From assembly GCA_018609755.1 (NCBI GenBank), contig JAHENZ010000005.1:1-41186 (forward strand): 41,186 bases of DNA. The letters run 5' to 3'. This DNA is from Salinivenus sp. (GTDB lineage: Bacteria; Bacteroidota; Rhodothermia; Rhodothermales; Salinibacteraceae). The notes beneath the pieces were generated by a model. It saw nothing but the letters and a program-made list of their open reading frames with translations, made no database searches and was not told where the DNA came from. Made by a program: the position numbers and the translations under genes. Below are positions 22,560-41,186 of the stretch, piece by piece; positions within the stretch are counted from its first letter, which is position 1; the number at the start of each line of letters is the position of its first letter.

Positions 22560-23069
22560 ATGGACACGCCCAACTACCGCGCTATCGTCGGCGATCGATC
22601 GTTTGACCTGTCCTTTGAAGAGGATTACGTGGTCGTGGACGGCGAGGCGAAGCCCTATTCCTTCGAGGTCCTACGGGACGGCTACGTCTCGCTCATCGTC
22701 GATGGCGTGAGCGTGCCGGTGTCGGTTGAACCGGGGGCTGACGGCCGCATGCAGGTGACCATTGCAGGGCAGCGAACGGAGGTGCAGGTGAAGGACGAGC
22801 GAGACCTGCTGGTCGACGCGTTTGGACTGGACGCCGGTGCGGCCGCGGGCGGTGAAGTACGGGCGCCGATGCCGGGCCTCGTAATCGACCTTCTCGTGGA
22901 GGAGGGGGATACGGTGGAGGCTGATCAGGGCCTGCTCGTGCTGGAAGCCATGAAGATGGAAAACGAACTCAAGGCCCCCTCCGGCGGCGTCGTGGGAACG
23001 ATTCACACAAAGAATGAAGAAGCCGTCGACAAAAACGATCTGCTCGTCGAAATCGAGCCAGCTGACTGA
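22560..23069 (+). CDS. Biotin/lipoyl carrier protein (acyl-CoA carboxylase BCCP-type subunit)
   Basis: A 169-aa protein with a C-terminal biotinyl domain (about 98-167): APMPGLVIDLLVEEGDTVEADQGLLVLEAMKMENEL, with the biotinylated lysine Lys132 in EAMKMEN. The N-terminal ~90 residues form a beta-rich leader (YRAIVGDRSFDLSFEEDYVVVDG) as in the carrier subunits of propionyl/acetyl-CoA or oxaloacetate-type carboxylases. It carries CO2 between a biotin carboxylase and a carboxyltransferase, neither of which is encoded nearby. It is followed 47 bp downstream by an SDR gene on the same strand. Confidence 0.9.
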   Translation: MDTPNYRAIVGDRSFDLSFEEDYVVVDGEAKPYSFEVLRDGYVSLIVDGVSVPVSVEPGADGRMQVTIAGQRTEVQVKDERDLLVDAFGLDAGAAAGGEVRAPMPGLVIDLLVEEGDTVEADQGLLVLEAMKMENELKAPSGGVVGTIHTKNEEAVDKNDLLVEIEPAD

Positions 23070-36259: not shown

Positions 36260-36652
36260 ATGCCAGCATCTTCTGTCCCCCCTGGGAAAACGAAAGGCCA
36301 GATTGAGGCCGCCGTCACGGAGGCGATCACCCAGTTTGAGCGCGACTATCTCGGCCGTGGCCCGAAGGAGGCAAAGTCGTTCGTCGTCGAGAATCTCGTC
36401 GTCGTAAAACTCCAGGGCATTTTGAGCCCGGCCGAGCAACAGTTGAGCCACGAAAATGGAGGCGTCGAGCTGATCAAACAAATGCGGACCCGCCTGATTG
36501 AAAGCTCCAGCGAGGATCTGTGTCGGCTCGTAGCAGAGGAAACCGGCATTGAGGTCGTCAGCATGCATACAGACATCAGCGCTCGGACTGGAGAGCGCGT
36601 CTTTGTGTTCAGTCTCGAAGACGATCTTGAGGGCATATTGGAAGAGCGGTAA
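36260..36652 (+). CDS. DUF2294 / YbcI-like protein
   Basis: A 130-aa protein matching DUF2294 (B. subtilis YbcI): GQIEAAVTEAITQFERDYLGRGPKEAKSFVVENLVVVKLQGILSPAEQQL, then a helix, then GIEVVSMHTDISARTGERVFVFSLEDDLE. In B. subtilis ybcI lies with the dabA/dabB homologues ybcC and ndhF (established gene context), and the same grouping occurs here: dabB and dabA follow on the same strand. No signal or membrane segment, so it is cytoplasmic. Its molecular role is unknown; an accessory or regulatory role in inorganic-carbon uptake is inferred from context. 355 bp with a terminator separate it from dabB. Confidence 0.88.
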   Translation: MPASSVPPGKTKGQIEAAVTEAITQFERDYLGRGPKEAKSFVVENLVVVKLQGILSPAEQQLSHENGGVELIKQMRTRLIESSSEDLCRLVAEETGIEVVSMHTDISARTGERVFVFSLEDDLEGILEER

Positions 36653-36825
36653 AAAGGGGCATGAACTTTCGGTAAGGGAAGCGCTTCGCGACTTGCGACA
36701 ACCTGTACCTGTTTCTATGTTCGTCTGCGGTTGAGGAGATGGAGCGCCACCGGCGAGCCAGCTCTTCAACCTCTCACATACAGCTCCGGCACGCAAGCTG
36801 CGTACACGCTTGGCTCCGCCTGCAC

Positions 36826-36848
36826 GACTCCCGTTCCACGCGGGAGTC
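36826..36848 (+). promoter_or_regulatory. Stem-loop in the dabB leader
   Basis: GACTCCCG (36826-36833) pairs perfectly with CGGGAGTC (36841-36848) around a 7-base loop. It precedes the terminator hairpin by 35 bases in the 355-bp spacer that otherwise contains no gene. It could be part of a leader RNA or a processing stem. Confidence 0.4.
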
Positions 36849-36883
36849 TCCTGCACGCGCGTCAAGCGGGTACAACGATTGGA

Positions 36884-36928
36884 GGCCGACATTCAGCGTC
36901 GATTCGGCGCTGCGTGTCGGCCTTTTTT
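36884..36928 (+). terminator. Intrinsic terminator upstream of dabB
   Basis: GGCCGACA (36884-36891) pairs perfectly with TGTCGGCC (36915-36922); an inner stem CAGCG/CGCTG (36894-36898 and 36908-36912) extends it, and TTTTTT (36923-36928) follows. This is a textbook rho-independent terminator on the plus strand, 232 bases after the DUF2294 stop and 79 bases before dabB. It may end the DUF2294 transcript or act as an attenuator of dabB-dabA. Confidence 0.85.
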
Positions 36929-37007
36929 CGTGCGCAAGTTTTGTGAGGACGTCTGGTGCCCAAGGATTGCCTTTTCACTGTACTCCTTGAACGACTGCTC
37001 TCTGCGC

Positions 37008-38423
37008 ATGCCGCTCCTGCTGACCCGCCTGACGTGGTTGCTCTTCGTGCTGAGCCTCGGTGCTCTGGTGTGGTCCCCCGATCCCGACTGGGCGCACGGC
37101 ACGGTCCTCCACGTCGACGGACTCACCCGCCTCATGGCCGTCGTGACCACCTTCTTCAGTGGGATCATTCAGAGCTTCGCTCGGCGATACATGGCAGGGG
37201 CCAAGCGTCTGAACTCGTTCTATGGGCGGATTTTCGCGCTCACGTTCATCGTGATATTGATGACGGCAGCCAACCATCTCGTCCTGTTCGTCGGGGCCTG
37301 GACGGCCATGGGCTGGCTGCTGGCGGACCTCATCGGGCACGTGCGAGGATGGCCGCAGGCACGGGCGGCCGCTCGATTCGCTCGCTGGCACTTTCTGGCG
37401 AGCAGTGCGCTGGTGGCCGGTGCTCTCGCCCTTCTGGGCGTACAGGCCGGGACGACAACCATTGACGGTGTGCTGTCAAGCCTCCCGTCCCTTTCCTCCT
37501 CCACCGTTGCCCTGGCTGCGCTCCTCCTGCTGGGCGGAGCAATGATTCAGTCCGCCCTCGTTCCCTTTCATCGATGGCTATTGTCCTCGATGACGGCCCC
37601 CACGCCGGTATCCGGCTTCATGCACGCCGGCCTCGTCAATGCCGGGGGCATCCTGCTGGCCCGGTTCGCCCCGGTTGCCTTCGAGCTCTCCTGGGTCATG
37701 TTGGTGATTGTGTTTGCGGGCGGCGTGAGTGCGCTCGTGGGCCAAGCCTGGATTTTGGTGCAGACGGACGTGAAGCGCCAGCTCGGCTCCTCAACGGTTG
37801 CCCAGATGGGATTCATGGTCCTACAGTGCGGCCTGGGACTCATCCCGGCCGCCATCACCCACCTCCTGCTGCACGGCTTCTACAAGGCGTACCTCTTCCT
37901 CGCAACCGGCTCCGCGGTGAAGCAGACGACGCCATCGAAGGCCTCCCCCACGTCTCCGTCCCTCGCCGGAAGCCTCGTCGCACTGGTCTCAGCAGTCCTG
38001 GGTGGCCTCCTGTTCGCGACTCTCACCGGCAAGTCGCTCACGACCCTCAACAGCGGCGCCCTACTCACCTTGTTCGTCGTTCTGGCCGTGTTGCACGCCA
38101 CACGAACGATGATCCGGCGTTCGGCGTTGCCCCGCACTGCCCGCCTCTGGGCCGTGCCGGTCGCGCTGCTCTCCTCGATCGGCCTCTACGCCCTCGTCTA
38201 CAACGGCGTGTCGGCCCTCCTGGCCCCGCTCCCGATGGTGTCGGTGCACCCGCCCCTCACTCCACTGCACTGGACGCTCGCCGGGCTGTTCGTGGCCGCG
38301 TACGTCGCCACGGAGCGGGGCTGGCATCGTTTGAGCACGCGGCTCTACGTCGCCCTCCTCAATAGCTCCCAGCCGGTTTCGACGACCCTACTGCACAACC
38401 GCGATCAGTACAATGCCTATTGA
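37008..38423 (+). CDS. dabB: DabB, membrane subunit of the DAB inorganic-carbon transporter
   Basis: A 471-aa polytopic protein of the NuoL/MrpA (proton_antipo_M) family, start ATG 37008 (MPLLLTRLTWLLF). The open frame extends upstream through the terminator and is not used. Family motifs are HVDGLTRLMAVVTTFFSGIIQSFARRYM, MIQSALVPFHRWLLSSM, APTPVSGFMHAGLVNAGGILLARF and HLLLHGFYKAYLFLATGSAV, with 12 or more hydrophobic segments. In DAB systems DabB couples cation flow to DabA (family knowledge). It overlaps dabA by 11 bases, so the two are translated together. Annotation as NADH dehydrogenase subunit 5 would be misleading: no other complex I genes are present. Confidence 0.92.
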   Translation: MPLLLTRLTWLLFVLSLGALVWSPDPDWAHGTVLHVDGLTRLMAVVTTFFSGIIQSFARRYMAGAKRLNSFYGRIFALTFIVILMTAANHLVLFVGAWTAMGWLLADLIGHVRGWPQARAAARFARWHFLASSALVAGALALLGVQAGTTTIDGVLSSLPSLSSSTVALAALLLLGGAMIQSALVPFHRWLLSSMTAPTPVSGFMHAGLVNAGGILLARFAPVAFELSWVMLVIVFAGGVSALVGQAWILVQTDVKRQLGSSTVAQMGFMVLQCGLGLIPAAITHLLLHGFYKAYLFLATGSAVKQTTPSKASPTSPSLAGSLVALVSAVLGGLLFATLTGKSLTTLNSGALLTLFVVLAVLHATRTMIRRSALPRTARLWAVPVALLSSIGLYALVYNGVSALLAPLPMVSVHPPLTPLHWTLAGLFVAAYVATERGWHRLSTRLYVALLNSSQPVSTTLLHNRDQYNAY

Positions 38424-40845
38424 ACGTTCCGTCGTCCGCGCTCGGATCGAAAATGCAGCCGAGTACGTCGGTCCCCTCTGGCCCCTGCAAACATTCAACG
38501 CCGCCAATCCGCTGGTGGGGTTCGAGGATCAGCCGTTCGACCACGCGGTCCAGCAGGCCGGGAAACTGCTCGGGGGCCGCGGATACGCACACCCGTCGGT
38601 CTTCCGTCAGGCCTGGGAAAACGGGGAAATCGACCCCGACATTCTGACGCGGCGCCTGGCCGAACACGGCATCACGCAGCGCCCCGAGGTGCTTTTGGAC
38701 CGGATGGACTCCGACGATCGCCGGGCCGACTCGGCTCCGTCGGATGAACCGCTCGATCGCGTGATGGTGAAGTGGCTCTCGGCGTTCCTCGACCAGGGGC
38801 AGGCCGCTTGGCCCATGCCGAAGCGGTCCGAGGGCTTTTACGCCGCCTGGCGCGCGGTGGCGCCCTACGACAATGCCGCCCCCTCCATCACGCGGTCAGC
38901 CGACCTTCCCGACACTCTACTGGAGGCCTTCGAGGAGGTCCTCTCCGGCTATCCCGAAAAGCGATGGGAGAGCATTTTCGTCCACCACCTCGCCGCCCTG
39001 CCGGGCTGGACCGGCTTCATTAAGTGGCGATCCCGGCGGGCCAACACGGAGTGGCAGGAGGCCTACCCCATCACCCTGGCCGACTACCTCGCCGTTCGCC
39101 TGACTCTGGCCACCCACCTGGGCGAAGCGGTGGCCCCGGATCGGGCCCGGGACCTGCCGGCCAACGGCACCGACCGGCCCTTCCTTCCCCAGATCTGGCT
39201 CCAGGCCTGGGAGGAAAGCTATCGGGATCGGCTGCTCAGCGACCTGGCGCAGGCGAAAACGCCAAACGACAAAGCAACTCGTCCCGATGCCCAGTTCGCC
39301 TTCTGCATCGACGTCCGCTCAGAAGTGATCCGACGACACATCGAGGAACAGGGACCTTACGAGACCCACGGGTACGCTGGCTTCTTTGGCGTGCCCATGC
39401 AACACCAGCCCTACGGCACCGAATCGACGGTGAAGGCATGCCCCCCGATCGTCGATCCGAAACATCGCATTATCGACCGGCCGGTGGACGACAAACAGTC
39501 CGCAGCGGATCGACACGGCTGGTGGACGGCCCTCGAAACGGGCCGCCGGGGACTCGTGAAGACCCTCAAACACAACATTGCCGCCGCATTCGGCTTCGTG
39601 GAGGGGAGCGGCGGATTCTTCGGAGGCGCAATGGCCGCCCGCACCCTGCTCCCGTCAGCACTCTTCAGCATGGCCGAGTGGGTGACCGACTGGATCCCTC
39701 AGCCCGAATCGTTCACCGAACCGACCGTGGATCGCCCGCCGTCCGACGATGCGGAATGGGAAAACGGCCTGCCCGTCGGGCTCTCTCACGAAGCGAAGGT
39801 ACTCTACGCCGAGGCCGCGTTCCGCCTCATGGGCTGGACGGACCGCTTCGCCCCGATCGTCGTGTTCACGGGCCACGGCACCCAAACCCCAAACAACCCG
39901 TACAAATCGAGCCTCGATTGCGGGGCCTGTTCCGGGAATCCGGGGGGACCGAACGCGCGGGTCCTCGCCACGATTTGCAACGAGGAGGCGGTGCAGACCG
40001 AACTGCGCGAACGGGGCATCGACATTCCCGACGACACCGTCTTCCTCGCCGGCCAGCACAACACCACAACCGACGAAATCACCCTCTTCGTCGACGATGC
40101 CTCTCCTCCGGTCCCCCCCGACGCCCTGGACCAACTCCGGGAGGACCTGCAAACCGCTCAGGCCGGGGCCACCACGGAACGCGTTCGGACCATGAACGCA
40201 ACGGTTGACGCGGGCCGACCGCAGGCGGCTGTCCGAGAAACCGAACGGCGGGCCGCCGATTGGGCCGAAACGCGGCCGGAATGGGGACTGGCCGGGAATG
40301 CCTCATTCATCGTTGGTCCCCGCAGCCTCACGCAAAACGTGGACCTTGACGGTCGCACCTTCCTTCACTCCTACGACTGGACCAAGGACGAGGACGGGAC
40401 CGCCCTAGAGAACATCATGACCGGACCGCTGGTCGTAGGGGAATGGATTAACATGCAGTACTACTTCTCAACGGTCGATAACGCGGCGTATGGAAGCGGC
40501 TCAAAGGTCACACAGAACGTCGTCGGCAAAATCGGTATCGTTCAGGGCAATGGGGGCGACCTTATGACCGGGCTTCCATTACAGTCCCTACAGATTGACG
40601 ACGAGCACCCGTTCCACCGTCCCCTACGCCTGCTCGCCGTCATTCAGGCCCCGGCCGATCGGGTCGACGCCATCCTTGATCGGCACGCCTCACTTGCCCA
40701 ACTTCTTGACCATGAGTGGATCCACCTTACGATCATGGATCCTACCGAGAACAATTCGTTCTTTCATTACGAGTCAGAGGGATGGACCGCGCATACGAAT
40801 GCGGCTCCCTCCTCCCCCCCCGCGTTCTCTACTTCTGCTTCCTAA
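38413..40845 (+). CDS. dabA: DabA, carbonic-anhydrase-like subunit (UPF0753/DUF2309)
   Basis: An 810-aa cytoplasmic-side protein that, with DabB, accumulates bicarbonate from CO2 in an energy-coupled way (established for Halothiobacillus). The zinc/active-site pattern is visible: Cys298 and Asp300 in FAFCIDVRSEVIRRHIE, His488 in FTGHGTQTPNNPYKSS and Cys503 in LDCGACSGNPGGPNAR. The His-Cys spacing of 15 agrees with H. neapolitanus DabA (His524/Cys539). Other family blocks are NAANPLVGFEDQPFDHA, YGFFGVP-like YAGFFGVPMQH, NASFIVGPRSLTQNVDLDGRTFLHSYDW and QYYFSTVDNAAYGSGSKVTQNVVGKIGIVQGNGGDLMTGLP. It appears complete and functional. Confidence 0.95.
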   Translation: MPIERSVVRARIENAAEYVGPLWPLQTFNAANPLVGFEDQPFDHAVQQAGKLLGGRGYAHPSVFRQAWENGEIDPDILTRRLAEHGITQRPEVLLDRMDSDDRRADSAPSDEPLDRVMVKWLSAFLDQGQAAWPMPKRSEGFYAAWRAVAPYDNAAPSITRSADLPDTLLEAFEEVLSGYPEKRWESIFVHHLAALPGWTGFIKWRSRRANTEWQEAYPITLADYLAVRLTLATHLGEAVAPDRARDLPANGTDRPFLPQIWLQAWEESYRDRLLSDLAQAKTPNDKATRPDAQFAFCIDVRSEVIRRHIEEQGPYETHGYAGFFGVPMQHQPYGTESTVKACPPIVDPKHRIIDRPVDDKQSAADRHGWWTALETGRRGLVKTLKHNIAAAFGFVEGSGGFFGGAMAARTLLPSALFSMAEWVTDWIPQPESFTEPTVDRPPSDDAEWENGLPVGLSHEAKVLYAEAAFRLMGWTDRFAPIVVFTGHGTQTPNNPYKSSLDCGACSGNPGGPNARVLATICNEEAVQTELRERGIDIPDDTVFLAGQHNTTTDEITLFVDDASPPVPPDALDQLREDLQTAQAGATTERVRTMNATVDAGRPQAAVRETERRAADWAETRPEWGLAGNASFIVGPRSLTQNVDLDGRTFLHSYDWTKDEDGTALENIMTGPLVVGEWINMQYYFSTVDNAAYGSGSKVTQNVVGKIGIVQGNGGDLMTGLPLQSLQIDDEHPFHRPLRLLAVIQAPADRVDAILDRHASLAQLLDHEWIHLTIMDPTENNSFFHYESEGWTAHTNAAPSSPPAFSTSAS

Positions 40846-40850
40846 CACGT

Positions 40851-41019
40851 CTAGTGGGCTTGCGCAACTGAAATGCGAGAAATCGCAGACCGTGACGCTG
40901 TTCCCGTCTGTATCTCCTGCGCGGAATATGCCAGGGATCGACCACTGCCGGCAAACGCTGACGATTGTGGCGTCAGGGGACCGACGCTCGAAACCGCCAG
41001 AGTCGTTGTGCAAGACTAG
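40851..41019. mobile_element. MITE-like element (169 bp) between dabA and the P-II gene
   Basis: Both ends are CTAG (40851-40854; 41016-41019). The left end reads CTAGTGGGCTTGCGCAAC; the right end reverse complement reads CTAGTCTTGCACAAC. With a 3-base gap they agree at 14 of 15. It starts 5 bases after the dabA stop. Inside are a GAAA-tetraloop hairpin TGCGA/TCGCA (40874-40887) and CTGACG/CGTCAG (40958-40976). No ORF is present. It could instead be a structured leader of the P-II gene. Confidence 0.4.
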
Positions 41020-41067
41020 CGTGCATTTTCACCCTCGACGTGCACATCGAGACCAACCAGACCTGCC

Positions 41068-41186
41068 ATGAGTGACGAGTCCAACAACAACCAGACCGAG
41101 CACACCCTCCACCCGCTCAAGAAAATCGAAATCATCGTCCGCGGCGAGAAAGAGCCGTTCGTCCGCGATCTGCTCGACGAGTCGAA
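41068..41186 (+). CDS. P-II-like protein, N-terminus (runs off the right edge)
   Basis: ATG 41068 starts MSDESNNNQTEHTLHPLKKI, then EIIVRGEKEPFVRDLLDES, and the frame is still open at the window end. LKKIEIIVRGE.. followed by a helix is the opening beta-alpha unit of the P-II/GlnB-like fold. P-II-like proteins encoded next to bicarbonate transporters (SbtB with SbtA; CPII in carboxysome loci; some DAB operons) sense adenine nucleotides and/or bicarbonate (family knowledge). Here it probably regulates DabAB. The T-loop and later domains are outside the window, so the assignment rests on about 25 residues plus context. Confidence 0.65.
   Translation, partial: MSDESNNNQTEHTLHPLKKIEIIVRGEKEPFVRDLLDES

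Follow-up and report, generated by a model that had tools for sequence, protein, structure and literature searches.

A conserved structured RNA between mpsC and dabBA suggests RNA control of carbon dioxide supply in Salinivenus and related Rhodothermales

Results

We identified a conserved structured RNA (positions 36727..36930, + strand) between the genes mpsC and dabB of a DAB inorganic carbon uptake locus in Salinivenus sp. (family Salinibacteraceae, order Rhodothermales), a halophile that is apparently not autotrophic. The locus lies at the end of a stretch of 41,186 nucleotides (nt), here called the window, which is one contig (C5) of a 5.0-Mb metagenome-assembled genome (MAG; 328 contigs, 96% complete, 5% contaminated). 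Four open reading frames (ORFs) were confirmed on the + strand across 36260-41186, in the order mpsC, dabB, dabA and a P-II-like gene. A sequence-only reading made earlier had listed these genes correctly and overlooked the RNA. Going by Rfam 15 and the open literature, the RNA is previously uncatalogued and it is the newer part of the locus, since DAB and the proximity of mpsC to DAB in staphylococci were already known. It seems probable, if by no means certain, that the locus supplies inorganic carbon to a heterotroph and that dabBA is controlled by transcription attenuation in this leader RNA.

Structure and signals of the leader RNA

mpsC and dabB are separated by 355 nt whose nucleotide sequence is conserved, and a consensus structure with 36 base pairs was obtained from 17 sequences. 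The window copy of this mpsC-linked leader (model R1/R2) scores 131.7 bits with the covariance model R1, which matches once per genome in 23 of the order's 114 genomes; among these are members of four families with little or no representation in the seed. Second matches were only weak or hit the terminator palindrome in antisense, and apart from that palindrome the RNA is single copy in its own genome. In an alignment of 24 sequences, which was fitted to the covariance model and is hence biased towards the model structure, 95.9% of cells are paired, compared to 31-41% in controls with a slid structure; two-sided changes occur in 30 of the 36 pairs, and none of 500 shuffles matched the observed values. 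A plain MAFFT alignment, free of model fitting, contains 19 covarying pairs. Searches against Rfam 15 with lenient thresholds returned no family match overlapping the RNA, and no match to tmRNA or tRNA was found.

The 5' domain forms a hairpin (36729-36738/36762-36771, + strand), and the segments CAAGC and AACGAUUG are conserved. The 3' end of the RNA is an intrinsic terminator, GGCCGACATTCAGCG..GTGTCGGCC-TTTTTT (36884..36928, + strand), located 79 nt upstream of the dabB start. It consists of a 15-pair helix with two-sided changes at 10 pairs, followed by a T run, and was scored as terminator-like in a scan. Immediately 5' of the RNA lies a promoter-like motif, TTG-N20-TATGTTCG (36693..36723, + strand). 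In 18 of 26 loci, the 55 nt that precede the RNA contain the pattern TTG-N17..22-TAnnnT (mean of 0.76 and maximum of 4 in 500 shuffles); scanning the leader region for plain sigma-70 promoters gave no match. In most genomes 26-85 nt separate the RNA end from the next start codon, which in places leaves little room for another promoter.

Linkage of mpsC and the RNA across genomes

The gene mpsC was found in 26 of the 114 genomes of the order, each time with the RNA downstream of it (counts that do not represent independent events, as the genomes are related and several are incomplete MAGs). The RNA is diverged in G016 and G022, and its match in G102 (38 bits) was obtained with filters off. Genomes of the order without mpsC gave no RNA match at threshold, and among 395 genomes spread evenly over the phylum both RNA matches and mpsC are confined to members of the order. 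The next gene downstream of the RNA is dabB in 16 of the 26 genomes (the one in G008 belongs to a second DAB copy, which is broken) and the isocitrate dehydrogenase gene (icd) in seven, while in G065 a TerB-like ORF lies between the RNA and icd. In G088 and G102, which belong to another family, the RNA is followed by an exported beta-carbonic anhydrase (beta-CA) and then by SbtA (L131:2784-4575 and L105:4459-6459). On the MpsC tree G080, with icd downstream, and G020, with dab downstream, are sisters (100/99), indicating that the downstream target changed while mpsC and the RNA were retained.

The MpsC protein is encoded at 36260..36652 (+ strand; 130 amino acids (aa), predicted cytosolic) and contains the DUF2294 domain (PF10057, E 2.1e-34; 118.4 bits versus a gathering score of 23), which is the MpsC protein of the staphylococcal mpsABC system (PMC6689103). 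An AlphaFold2 model (pLDDT 87) gave no Foldseek match at E <= 0.001 (best VIA Z 6.9, with unrelated folds), and a literature search on DUF2294 returned nothing relevant. The sequence-only reading holds in that DUF2294 adjoins DAB. It was overstated in treating DUF2294 as one part of a four-part module: other families of the order have the mpsC-RNA pair but no DAB, so that DUF2294 here is not simply a DAB subunit and pairs with the RNA. Given the unbroken linkage, MpsC is a candidate partner that binds the RNA or the signal.

On Bacillota plasmids, mpsC precedes SbtA with a terminator in between, or elsewhere follows dabBA, and divergent DUF2294 genes precede fdhD. A weak R1/R2 match (E 0.007) was observed in Acetoanaerobium (L125:4360-4454), exactly between mpsC and an OFA-like gene of the major facilitator superfamily (MFS); on this match the RNA class may reach Bacillota. 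No significant RNA match was found in Anoxybacillus. A DUF2294/MpsC-like stretch is also present in a 595-kb uncultured phage record (LR756511.1; L132:3102-3380), with no RNA match beside it. MpsC relatives were found neither in the viral contigs searched nor in six genomes from outside Rhodothermota that carry a distant DAB.

The DabA/DabB transporter

Downstream of the RNA, dabB (mpsA; 37008..38423, + strand) encodes a proton-channel-like membrane subunit (PF00361, E 6e-37, and PF00662; DabB2 9rd0_B, E 5e-30) and dabA (mpsB; 38413..40845, + strand) a beta-CA-like cytoplasmic subunit (PF10070, E 1e-266; 9rd0_A, E 1e-120), so that a PF10070 DabA and a PF00361 DabB share one operon. The ORF coordinates agree with the earlier statement that the two genes overlap by 11 base pairs (bp). 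The metal-site residues had likewise been read as intact, and this is borne out by an alignment with DabA2 of PDB 9rd0 that spans most of DabA: C298, H488 and C503 align with the Zn ligands and D300 and R302 with the Asp-Arg dyad. A Cys2His zinc site and an Asp-Arg dyad have been described for DabA (PMC13144422). DabAB2 of Halothiobacillus neapolitanus (PDB 9rd0) thus shares both subunits, the gene overlap and the full Zn/Asp/Arg site with the locus in the window; it differs in that the host genome here has no RuBisCO match.

The gene order recurs throughout the genus and in most sister genera, as the sequence-only reading had required for its proposal; its description of the setting as little described was overstated. 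DAB is known in heterotrophs from S. aureus MpsAB (PMC6689103) and from heterotrophic Halobacteria (PMC10880623), and S. aureus combines DAB and DUF2294 in a heterotroph (PMC6689103). Since DAB in heterotrophs and mpsC beside DAB in staphylococci were already known, the DAB locus is a conserved variant of a known system. In contrast to the mpsA-mpsB-mpsC order of S. aureus, mpsC lies upstream here, with the structured RNA in between.

Several further observations concern DAB copies. The DabA of the window (38413-40845) is 52-55% identical to DabA of haloarchaeal plasmids and at most 37% identical to other bacterial plasmid copies; gene exchange in brine is a possible origin of this likeness. 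Neither of two haloarchaeal plasmid DAB loci that were compared has mpsC or P-II annotated alongside. A second, divergent DAB (about 33% identical) occurs in L106:8832-13321, L054:2096-4069 (G013), L056:2117-8987 (G008) and L055 (G025). It adjoins the main DAB in G080 and comes after mpsC-RNA-icd in G013, and in G008 its dabB and dabA fragments lie about 4 kb apart and it is apparently broken. The dabA gene of G023 (L010:5156-7387) is apparently split into three frames, by sequencing error or decay.

Carbon metabolism of the host

No RuBisCO had been noted in the window, and none was detected in the whole genome, in which PF00016 gave no match. Phosphoenolpyruvate (PEP) carboxylase is present in this genome and in 21 of 24 relatives, and the window contains a biotin carrier-like protein with an LEAMKMEN motif (22560-23069), in agreement with the carrier reported at 22.6 kb. 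PEP carboxylase without detectable RuBisCO fits the anaplerotic and biotin-dependent carboxylation role that had been suggested, with DAB supplying bicarbonate. In a set of 41 relatives, nearly all complete genomes of the family carry DAB, which is rare outside the family. A beta-CA (PF00484) is missing in 12 of 13 genomes of the genus, including the genome studied here, and the genome that has one, G011, carries neither DAB nor mpsC. In S. aureus, MpsAB is the only inorganic carbon supply where beta-CA is missing (PMC6689103).

In genomes of sister genera (G013, G014, G020 and G021), the gene directly after dabBA-PII encodes a beta-CA with no obvious signal peptide (including L111:13135-13776, L112:11912-12586 and L060:1411-2187), an unexpected pairing of a bicarbonate pump with a cytosolic-looking carbonic anhydrase.

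The P-II-like gene

The last gene (41068..41184, + strand) is represented by its 5' end only. Extension past 41186 had been proposed; as the contig ends there, the gene was followed in relatives instead. The 39 aa in the window gave no Pfam family match on their own. They are 59-90% identical to the start of full-length proteins (115-125 aa; Pfam P-II, E 9e-22) whose genes come right after dabA in relatives, and these proteins agree with the earlier call of a P-II-like gene. By far the closest P-II entries to these orthologues are PDB 5d4n and 5d4l (5d4n: 48/101 identical, E 1.6e-26; next P-II, E 0.025). Going by the title of Wheatley et al. 2016, we take 5d4n, 5d4l and 5ds7 to be CPII, the PII-like protein of Thiomonas intermedia, with which the relatives' proteins align ungapped through the T-loop region. 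CPII-type proteins are associated with bicarbonate and occur at carboxysome loci, whereas the gene here lies beside DAB in a non-autotroph with no carboxysome. Judged by the full-length relatives, the last gene is a predicted CPII-type P-II. This, together with the Pfam assignments, agrees with the earlier description of a complete DAB locus bracketed by DUF2294 and a P-II-like gene. In G009 (L049:13800-18293) an apparent arginine biosynthesis cluster, whose ORFs were named by eye as argE-, argB-, carbamoyltransferase- and argD-like, converges on the P-II gene.

Attenuation and alternative explanations

The spacing, the terminator, the promoter-like motif and the shared theme of the downstream genes suggest a transcription attenuator that acts in cis: a covarying structure ends in a terminator close before a gene, and related genes lie downstream in different lineages. 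The position in a 5' leader, the covarying helices and the terminator just before metabolically related genes are shared with known riboswitches and leader attenuators. The RNA differs from these in belonging to no Rfam family, in always being preceded by mpsC and in having an unproven antiterminator. When the 3' arm of the terminator is omitted, several sequences adopt another fold, in which CGGC..CAA of a conserved linker is paired to UUG..GCCG in the 5' arm.

Several points weigh against attenuation of a carbon supply operon. Linker:terminator pairs average 4.5, compared to 3.7 in shuffled linkers, leaving the antiterminator without statistical support; icd is tied less directly to CO2 and might lie there by chance; and some dab adjacencies may have arisen by simple deletion of icd and the second DAB. 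Growth of S. aureus is not affected by deletion of mpsC, and in E. coli mpsAB is enough on its own (PMC6689103). An alpha-CA is present in the genome studied here and in G008 and G009, and the absences in G011 come from a genome that is 83% complete. The lack of support for an antiterminator would also suit the main rival, a free-standing, trans-acting small RNA (sRNA) that happens to be located after mpsC; its terminator would then be a normal gene end, and the genes downstream would rely on weak or embedded promoters of their own. Such an sRNA, which we regard as possible but rather doubtful, would account for the RNA having its own promoter-like motif and strong terminator and for a linkage to mpsC that is stricter than that to any single downstream gene. 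It would leave little promoter room in the gap between terminator and start codon, often about 26-50 nt, and the downstream genes would not be expected to be, as they are, nearly all CO2 or bicarbonate genes.

The dispensability of mpsC in S. aureus (PMC6689103) is also compatible with a plain DAB operon in which the RNA and mpsC are unrelated to the regulation of the transporter, and an ancestral mpsC-RNA-icd-DAB2-DAB1-PII array was reduced by deletion to mpsC-RNA-DAB1-PII. G080, in which mpsC-RNA-icd-dabB2-dabA2-dabB1-dabA1 is contiguous, resembles such an ancestor. We nevertheless consider this history unlikely: mpsC-RNA precedes beta-CA and SbtA in two genomes of another family and Bacillota mpsC adjoins SbtA or DAB, so that the linkage to CO2 genes is repeated without that deletion history. 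Finally, MpsABC was originally named as a membrane-potential-generating system (text cited in PMC6689103), and DAB might serve membrane-potential or Na+/H+ handling in brine instead of inorganic carbon supply. The complete beta-CA-like site, the CPII type of the P-II protein, the absence of beta-CA from most DAB carriers of the genus and, in sister genera, the cytosolic-looking beta-CA that directly follows P-II make this highly improbable.

Discussion

In the attenuation model that we favour, DabB would couple the proton-motive force to DabA, which would hydrate CO2 to bicarbonate inside the cell. The bicarbonate would feed PEP carboxylase, biotin carboxylases and carbamoyl-phosphate synthesis, with DAB replacing the beta-CA that is absent from the genus and the CPII-type P-II probably tuning transport to the levels of adenylate and bicarbonate. 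Transcription of dabBA would start after mpsC and first yield a structured leader of about 200 nt that ends in the intrinsic terminator. Read-through would switch the genes on in response to a CO2- or bicarbonate-linked metabolite or to a protein, for which MpsC is the obvious candidate. In relatives the same mpsC-leader pair could act on icd or on the exported beta-CA and SbtA that it precedes. More tentatively, the RNA could be the first of a new class of regulatory RNAs that sense CO2 or bicarbonate, directly or via an RNA-binding MpsC, and control DAB, SbtA, carbonic anhydrase and icd by transcription attenuation.

Bacteria that do not fix CO2 also need bicarbonate, and to our knowledge it is largely unknown how they sense it. 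A conserved leader RNA located before three alternative inorganic carbon systems provides a directly testable regulator, and MpsC/DUF2294, which is without a phenotype in S. aureus, is given a tangible partner and, in two phyla, a recurring tie to carbon supply.

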